Below, piece by piece: positions 3,813 through 13,683 of a DNA stretch of 35,079 nt. The notes below the pieces were generated by a model that did no database searches, had not been told where the DNA came from, and saw nothing but the letters and a program-made list of their open reading frames with translations. The translations under genes were made by a program, and so were the position numbers. Each line of letters starts with the position of its first letter. Position 1 is the first letter of the stretch. Source of the stretch: Candidatus Woesearchaeota archaeon (GTDB lineage: Archaea > Nanobdellota > Nanobdellia > Woesearchaeales > GW2011-AR4); NCBI GenBank assembly GCA_016192985.1, contig JACPTC010000015.1, forward strand, positions 1-35,079, in the 5' to 3' direction.

Positions 3813-4932
3813 ATGCAATTCAAATTCAATATCCCAAACAAGATAACCCTGATAAGAGTAAGCTTGATTCCCTTATTCGCAGTAATACTTTTGATTGACA
3901 TCCCCTACAAAAACATTTTAGCTGCTTTTATCTTCGGCATGCTTTCTGTTTCAGATTTTTTGGACGGGTACTTTGCCAGAAAGAAAAAACAAGTAACTCA
4001 GTTGGGAAAGCTTATTGATTTCTGTTTCAGATTTTTTGGACGGGTACTTTGCCAGAAAGAACAAACAAGTAACTCAGTTGGGAAAGCTTATTGATCCAAT
4101 TGCCGACAAACTGCTGATTTCAACAGCATTGGTTTTTTTGGTTGGAAAAGGCGTTCCATTATGGATGGCTGTTGCGATAATTGCAAGGGAAGTCATAATA
4201 ACCTCAATAAGGGCTTATTTACTGCCAAGCAAAATAGTTGTTCCTGCAAGCAGTTTTGGCAAGGCAAAAACCGTTGTGCAGAGCATAGCAATTGTTTTTG
4301 TGCTTTTAAATCTGCCCTTAAGTTGGCATATGATGTTTGCCGCTGTTCTGCTTACTGTCTTATCAGGCTTGGAGTACCTTATGAGAATAAGGCAAATGAC
4401 TGGAAACAAGATTGTCAACCTGCCTAATTTAATCACTTTGTTTAGGTTCCTTTTAATTATGCCGTTTGTTTATTACTTTTGGAGCTCCGAAATTCACATT
4501 GCATTATTGATTTTCGCCTTGATAAGTTTAAGCGACAAGCTTGATGGAATCTCTGCAAGGCTGATGAATCAAAAAACTGAAATTGGCTCTGGGTTTGACT
4601 CTTTTACAGACTGGACTTTGATAATAACCACATTCATACTCTTGGCTATAAAAAACTACATCAATCTGTTCTGGGTAGTGCTACTTGTGGTGCCTTCAAT
4701 AATAAGCGGAGCAATGAAAATTATATATATAAAGAGGCAAAAGACAGTGCCTGTTACAATTGTTGCAAGGCTGAGTGTCGGAATGACTTATACAACCATA
4801 ATCTCAATAGTCATAAATTTTAGATACACTATATATTTACTTTTGGTTACTGTGCTTCTTGTTTATTTTGCAATGATAGGATATATTTTCAAAACTTTAA
4901 CCTTGCCTAAGAAGCCACATAACAAGCAATAA
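3813..4932 (+). pseudogene. pgsA: PgsA-like CDP-alcohol phosphatidyltransferase fused to a second CDP-alcohol phosphatidyltransferase domain; reading frame broken by a 76-bp tandem duplication
   Basis: Domain 1: SDFLDGYFARK(K/N)KQVTQLGKLIDPIADK. Domain 2: DKLDGISARLMNQKTEIGSGFDSFTDW. Deleting one repeat unit joins ORFs 3813-4094 and 4015-4932. Confidence 0.85.
3943..4094. repeat. 76-bp direct tandem duplication with one mismatch
   Basis: 3943-4018 vs 4019-4094; aagaaaaaac vs aagaacaaac is the only difference seen. Confidence 0.93.
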
Positions 4933-13174: not shown

Positions 13175-13474
13175 GTGCAACAAATTAATTATAAGCCATT
13201 GAAGCACATCCTAGTCTGCACCAATGAAAGGGAGCGAGGAAAAGATTGCTGCTCTCACGTCAAGGGCTATGAAATATTTAGAGAATTAAAAGACTGGACA
13301 AAGGCAAATGGATTAGCATCTTCTGTCTGGGTCACGCGAACTGGCTGCTTGGGATTCTGCAACAATGTTGGCGCAACTGTTGTGATTTACCCCGACCAGA
13401 TTTGGTTCAAGGAAGTTAAGAAGGAAGAAGTGCAAAAGATAAAGGATTTTATTTTGAGTTCTTTAAATAAATAA
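13175..13474 (+). CDS. Thioredoxin-like [2Fe-2S] ferredoxin
   Basis: HILVCTNERERGKDCC ... TRTGCLGFCNNVGATVVIYPDQIWF. Confidence 0.85.
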   Translation: MQQINYKPLKHILVCTNERERGKDCCSHVKGYEIFRELKDWTKANGLASSVWVTRTGCLGFCNNVGATVVIYPDQIWFKEVKKEEVQKIKDFILSSLNK

Positions 13475-13512
13475 AACTTTATAAACCAGCCAAGATTTCA
13501 AACTCCAGTTTC

Positions 13513-13683
13513 GGGCCTGTAGTTCAGTCTGGCAGCTGCCAATCAGTGAGATGCGAGTGAGCATGGTTCTTTGCGAACTCGCTCACAACTGACTGGCTCG
13601 CTGGACAATTAGAATGCTCGACTGATAAACATTCATCAAATGATCGATTCGAGTGGTCACCAGTTCAAATCTGGTCAGGCCCA
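13513..13683 (+). tRNA. tRNA-Ile(GAT) with two apparent introns (D-loop and near 37/38)
   Basis: GGGCCTG/CAGGCCC, GTTC/GAAT, CTCGA-CTGATAA-[intron]-TCGAG, ACCAG-TTCAAAT-CTGGT. Confidence 0.85.

Follow-up and report, generated by a model that had tools for sequence, protein, structure and literature searches.

BHB (bulge-helix-bulge) introns at D-, anticodon- and T-arm positions, several of them within one tRNA and affecting most tRNA genes, have been described in the Thermoproteales (Pyrobaculum and relatives; PMC4033280, PMC8450103), in which splicing is carried out by an (alpha-beta)2 endonuclease equipped with a Crenarchaea-specific loop (CSL). Introns at unusual positions are likewise found in the tRNAs of the ultrasmall archaeon ARMAN-2 (Micrarchaeum), which uses an epsilon2 three-unit enzyme with ARMAN-specific loop (ASL) residues (PMC12397907). 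Published models accordingly link introns outside the anticodon site to extra-loop endonucleases, either (alpha-beta)2 or epsilon2, whereas alpha4 enzymes such as those of M. jannaschii (1a79) and the Nanoarchaeota (Nst1) are described as cutting canonical introns only (PMC12397907, PMC4033280). Outside tRNAs, BHB introns processed by the tRNA machinery are known from a crenarchaeal protein gene, cbf5 (PMC2738675).

The locus analyzed here, a tRNA-Ile(GAT) gene interrupted in both its D-loop and its anticodon loop, resembles those of the Thermoproteales and ARMAN-2 in the placement of its introns. In contrast to both, its host is a member of the Woesearchaeota (DPANN) in which we found a lone alpha-type endonuclease subunit, and the CSL, the epsilon2 architecture and the ASL residues are missing. 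In this respect the closest described enzymes are the alpha4 endonucleases, with which it shares a single alpha subunit of about 180-200 aa, a candidate Tyr/His/Lys triad and the absence of a loop insertion, but here the sole endonuclease gene found stands beside many non-canonical introns, and the homotetramer is putative. A partial literature search retrieved no work on tRNA introns in Woesearchaeota. The introns themselves belong to a known class; what is new is the host lineage, the co-occurrence of a lone alpha-type endonuclease with many non-canonical introns, and the enlargement of one intron by a genome-wide repeat. We consider it very probable (roughly 0.9) that the gene encodes a functional tRNA-Ile(GAT) with two BHB introns, the one in the D-loop being shared within the genus and enlarged in this species by a repeat copy.

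Architecture of the interrupted tRNA-Ile(GAT) gene

The gene occupies positions 13513-13683 of the window, by which we mean the whole 35,079-nt stretch of DNA analyzed, and belongs to a Woesearchaeota groundwater genome (G000) available as a 65-contig draft assembly that is 77% complete. Using an excision search, in which BHB-compatible removals were tried and the remainder scored for cloverleaf fit while no intron positions were supplied, the best end product in the window was GGGCCTGTAGTTCAGTCTGGTTAGAATGCTCGACTGATAATCGAGTGGTCACCAGTTCAAATCTGGTCAGGCCCA (cloverleaf score 32.0), a sequence of 75 nt that is left when 13533-13608 and 13629-13648 are excised. With both introns out, a complete cloverleaf is formed by the acceptor stem GGGCCTG/CAGGCCC, the T arm ACCAG-TTCAAAT-CTGGT, the D stem GTTC/GAAT and the anticodon stem CTCGA/TCGAG. 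The original prediction had held that all four stems can be drawn once two blocks are taken out, and a search blind to introns picked the same two removals. The fold of the whole gene also beats those of 200/200 shuffles (z = -4.7).

Three exons result, all on the forward strand. Exon 1 (13513-13532) carries the acceptor 5' strand, U8-A9, the D-stem 5' strand and the D-loop to G18-G19, and is 100% identical to contiguous tRNA-Ile in same-genus genomes. Exon 2 (13609-13628) provides U20-U20a-A21, the D-stem 3' strand, base 26, the anticodon stem 5' strand and the loop CUGAUAA with the anticodon GAU, while exon 3 (13649-13683) holds the anticodon stem 3' strand, the variable loop, the T arm, the acceptor 3' strand and the discriminator A73. 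A candidate archaeal TATA-like box, ACTTTATAAAC, was recognized by eye upstream of the tRNA (13477-13487, forward strand).

The gene was missed on the window by ARAGORN (default settings) and by Rfam at its gathering threshold, and a lax tRNA-model search of the genome saw only its 3' part (13603-13683, 15.4 bits). As tRNA finders miss such genes, the tRNA counts used for DPANN completeness may be too low. Rfam returned no match to a ribozyme intron (group I, group II or other self-splicing) at the gathering threshold, and relaxing the cut-off to E up to 10 added none of relevance. For the D-loop block, Rfam gave weak matches (mir-590, tmRNA and others) that were dismissed as chance.

The 76-nt D-loop intron (13533-13608, forward strand) lies between tRNA positions 19 and 20. 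The cut falls between G19 and U20, where empty-site relatives read AGTCTGG directly joined to TTAGAAT, and the cut site is unique because sliding it by one base alters the product. As relatives carry an uninterrupted D arm, the size of the intron is fixed; the block of about 74 nt first placed at 13535-13608 is indeed a D-loop intron, but it measures 76 nt and starts at 13533. In the corresponding BHB, the outer helix is the D stem, the central 4-bp helix is GUCU/GGAC, the bulges are GGC and AAU, each divided by the boundary after its second base, and the inner helix starts with AGC/GCU. This geometry is a strict 3-4-3 BHB at an unusual position, and only 0.19% of shuffled introns give the 4-bp helix together with a 3-bp inner helix when the boundaries are fixed from relatives. 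Of the pairing GTCTGG/CTGGAC previously assigned to the junction, the GUCU/GGAC portion is the working helix, whereas the longer pairing, of GUCUGGC with GCUGGAC across the 5' cut, represents a competing fold that is present in the minimum-energy structure.

The 20-nt anticodon-loop intron (13629-13648, forward strand) was correctly anticipated as a BHB with a TGAT/ATCG helix, but its position, first given as near 37/38, is after base 38, a single base 3' of the canonical anticodon site. Its central helix is UGAU/AUCG and its bulges are AAA and AUU, likewise divided after the second base. An intron of the same length is present in four related genomes (G002, G007, G013 and G017) and absent from two others (G019 and G011), both of which keep the loop CUGAUAA.

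On the basis of this architecture, transcription, cutting and ligation in the cell would proceed as follows. The transcript would fold such that each intron junction presents a 4-bp helix with a 3-nt bulge on either side, the D stem acting as the exon-side helix of the D-loop intron; within each bulge, the endonuclease would cut behind the second base; and the exons would be joined, most likely by RtcB, into the 75-nt tRNA.

The D-loop intron in related species

A stretch of 33 contiguous nt with 100% identity to the spliced 5' half, running across the D-loop junction, is present in two genomes of the same genus (G003 and G006) and in two of the same family (G020 and G022), and the whole D arm is uninterrupted in G013 and G023. 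Orthology was followed by means of the upstream gene (99 aa; 13175-13474, forward strand), which gave no match in a Pfam search and is 79-91% identical in ten other genus members. This gene adjoins the tRNA in G002, G003, G009, G011, G013, G016 and G017, and the same downstream gene is found in G017; the named relatives sharing this upstream gene are groundwater MAGs of Candidatus Woesearchaeota.

An intron at the same D-loop bond was found in four other species of the genus, measuring 33 nt in G017, G016 and G019 and 24 nt in G007; in G017 and G016 the same upstream gene lies alongside. The cross-species comparison supports the original claim of a tRNA-Ile(GAT) that carries a pair of BHB introns, one of them in the D-loop. 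Within the five species, all 55/55 cells of the 11-pair BHB structure are standard pairs, and three pairs, one per helix, have changed on both sides (U-A/C-G in the D stem, U-A/U-G/C-G in the central helix and C-G/U-A in the inner helix). When the structure was slid by 1-3 bases, 27-44% of the cells were paired, and the covariation score was reached by 5/500 control shuffles. The covariation is supportive of a BHB at this position, being fair and not massive with five sequences. At the level of the sequence, these comparisons establish the intron boundaries, the conserved structure and the mature tRNA.

The same data bear on two further readings of the block. One would make it an internal loop retained within an oversized D arm of the mature tRNA, a reading for which no support was found and which we regard as barely credible, given that its length varies between 0, 24, 33 and 76 nt among close relatives, that its boundaries fit a BHB and that the D-loop lacking it has an ordinary 10 nt. 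The other would attribute the block to assembly or binning, a repeat-driven chimera having placed it in the tRNA. Repeats do break MAG assemblies, and the genome is a multi-contig draft; however, the genes on both sides are syntenic with those of relatives, and an intron occupies this bond in other species whose genomes were assembled independently, so that an artefact appears highly improbable. We retain the reading of a genuine D-loop intron, which at least five species of one genus share, the other four having a shorter version of 24-33 nt.

The excision search yielded a complete tRNA-Ile(GAT) in 16 species. The genes of G006, G022, G020 and G003 (L046-L049), which have no D-loop intron, contain two or three introns at other positions, following mature base 32 and within the anticodon/variable region. 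Intron positions turn over rapidly among these orthologues. On the endonuclease tree, which is weakly resolved, the species with a D-loop intron do not group together, and the history of the intron would involve either one gain with losses or several gains.

A palindromic repeat within the D-loop intron

The stretch that makes the D-loop intron longer than its orthologues (about 13544-13591, reverse strand) represents one copy of a palindromic, interspersed repeat with the consensus AGTTGTGAGCGAGTTCGCAACGAGCTCACTCGCATCTCACTG (~45 nt), of which the tRNA gene carries the reverse complement. A consensus built from the other copies matched the window with 87% identity over 47 nt (E 1.4e-7). Using a covariance model that includes the window copy, whose own E-value is for this reason not independent, copies were detected in 19/20 genus genomes, with 2 to 81 in each at E up to 1 and 20 in the host genome (C3:32516, C12:14537, C39:10065, C58:13872 and C57:13543, among others). 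On C39, the copy falls within an open reading frame similar to a family-2 glycosyltransferase. The long hairpin originally proposed for the block does appear in the minimum-energy fold; that it is in addition a genome-wide repeat had gone unnoticed.

The immediate flanks of the copies are complementary to each other more than swapped flanks are (0/10,000 permutations), which suggests a location at hairpin tips; part of the copies also have a second, outer repeat in common. The Rickettsia palindromic elements are likewise short palindromes found inserted in genes, whereas the copies described here are bordered by complementary flanks and one of them is located within a BHB intron. A candidate interpretation of the repeat as a family of BHB introns was rejected, as strict-BHB placement was not above the swapped-flank control (mean best score 6.7 vs 6.1). 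Among full tRNA introns parsed around repeat copies in other species (L143, L144, L150, L154 and L149), only L143 gave a plausible tRNA.

From its spread we infer that the repeat is mobile, and it probably reached the D-loop intron by insertion. The present length of 76 nt would be due to a copy having come to lie in the apical part of the intron, which left the BHB intact. Sister species hold the same intron at 24, 33 and 76 nt, with the repeat copy in the longest form, and offer a snapshot of intron growth.

An insertion of this kind could also have killed the gene, in which case the block would remain unspliced within a pseudogene. Such a reading draws on the presence of an interspersed repeat copy in the block and on the long hairpin, which competes with folding of the D-loop. 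It is nevertheless very unlikely, as the remainder of the intron shares homology with the shorter introns that four repeat-free species carry at this bond, the exons are undecayed and give the same kind of mature tRNA, and BHB pairing has been kept through compensatory changes. Moreover, a second, intact tRNA-Ile(GAT), which in the original prediction counted, together with a lack of spliced reads, as refuting the introns, was not detected in a search of the 77%-complete assembly, and the D-loop intron is retained in orthologues, where compensatory changes are seen.

Removal could also occur in two steps, the BHB-like repeat hairpin leaving first and the remaining 41-nt intron second. The top-scoring excision path is indeed nested, with a 35-nt inner BHB followed by the outer one, and a strict BHB is present in 24/33 repeat copies in the tRNA orientation and in 23/33 in the opposite one. 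However, the outer cut alone suffices, copies sharing descent amount to one observation, a bulged palindrome can give such geometry on both strands, and inner excision alone would leave residual repeat sequence. We therefore consider two-step removal unlikely and favor excision of the D-loop intron as one unit.

Splicing enzymes and other introns of the host genome

Searches with PF01974 and PF02778 found one endonuclease gene in the host genome (C49), with N- and C-terminal domains, and one gene in nearly all relatives, mostly of 179-269 aa between stops; extra strong matches were confined to G013 (two) and G002 (a second N-terminal match at a contig end). The host protein has ~198 aa, is of the alpha type and of M. 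jannaschii-like length, and among solved structures it is closest to the N. equitans alpha subunit (3iey_A) and the M. jannaschii enzyme (1a79). The candidate catalytic Tyr/His/Lys, assigned from motif position, are present and conserved across the order. The CSL is missing, as indicated by a 9-residue gap in the alignment with A. pernix, as are the ASL residues Y160-K161 (a 2+1 gap in the alignment with ARMAN-2), and the spacing between the YG and LSLIE motifs is the same across the order, which leaves no CSL/ASL insertion with its lysine. Neither a second (beta) subunit nor a three-unit fusion was found by profile search of the 77%-complete host assembly. A divergent beta subunit may escape detection or fall in the missing 23%, but the related genome G032 (one contig, 100% completeness) shows one endonuclease gene too. 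On the sequence evidence, a single alpha-type gene is what was found in the host.

Among the tRNA genes found by model and checked in the host genome, 17/18 are interrupted; the best published comparison is with the Thermoproteales, at 0.84 introns per tRNA gene (PMC8450103). There are at least four D-loop introns (Ile, Arg-TCT, Val-TAC and Phe-GAA), T-arm introns in Gly-GCC, Gly-CCC and Arg-CCT, and an intron at about 30/31 in Lys-TTT, the parses of Cys, Ser, a Pro/Ala-like gene and the later introns of Phe being tentative. Several of the other introns look relaxed, in that the inner helix is missing or three of the four central pairs are formed.

These observations qualify the proposal that a splicing endonuclease tolerant of non-canonical sites is implied. 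The D-loop intron has strict geometry and therefore makes by itself no demand for a relaxed enzyme; an alpha4 enzyme reading geometry and ignoring position could cut it. The relaxed introns would need enzyme tolerance, and the only gene found is of the alpha type, lacking the expected specificity loops. A DPANN lineage with such introns in many detected tRNAs, one alpha-type gene and no loop renders the loop rule testable.

RtcB was not found in the host assembly (77% complete). It is present in 15/19 other genus members and was not found in four, one of which is 99% complete. In seven relatives (G003, G010, G006, G001, G016, G011 and G013; L129-L135), rtcB is interrupted by blocks of 12-33 nt that contain stop codons or alter the frame. 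In G003, G010 and G001, the conserved MPDGHWGYGFPIGG is recovered exactly by the BHB excision with the highest score, and BHB excisions among the top few restore MPDGHWGYGFPIGG or GGIGFDINCG in G013, G006, G016 and G011. This suggests, as far as can be read from the genes, mRNA introns within the gene of the very ligase that splicing needs; as predicted for rtcB, the situation would resemble cbf5 in that a protein gene is spliced by the tRNA machinery, but in another gene, that of the RNA ligase itself, and in another phylum. The rtcB of G019 (L140, C18:39900-43200) contains, following the conserved GGIGFDINC, a large insertion that preserves the frame and lies in an open frame of 992 codons; this insertion is probably an intein.

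A broader model, to which we would assign somewhat less than even odds, combines these elements. A lone alpha-type endonuclease free of the known specificity loops would excise BHB introns at many positions, in almost all tRNAs and also in the rtcB mRNA, while the mobile hairpin-tip repeat would use introns as safe landing sites, enlarging them with no harm to the tRNA.

Signs of duplication were also observed in and around other genes. The T-loop introns of two different tRNA genes (L016, G000:C47:11165; L124, C39:5300-5450) share the GCAAGCGAGCATGCTTG hairpin, as if one intron had been copied between tRNAs. The 3' part of the tRNA-Val(TAC) gene, whose D-loop intron measures 46 nt, occurs once more between that gene and tRNA-Gly(GCC) (L128, G000:C30:5697-5912), which amounts to a partial tandem duplication. 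Within the window, overlapping frames at 3813-4932 repeat SVSDFLDGYFARKxKQVTQLGKLID in a CDP-alcohol phosphatidyltransferase-like gene, reflecting either a partial tandem duplication or an assembly error.
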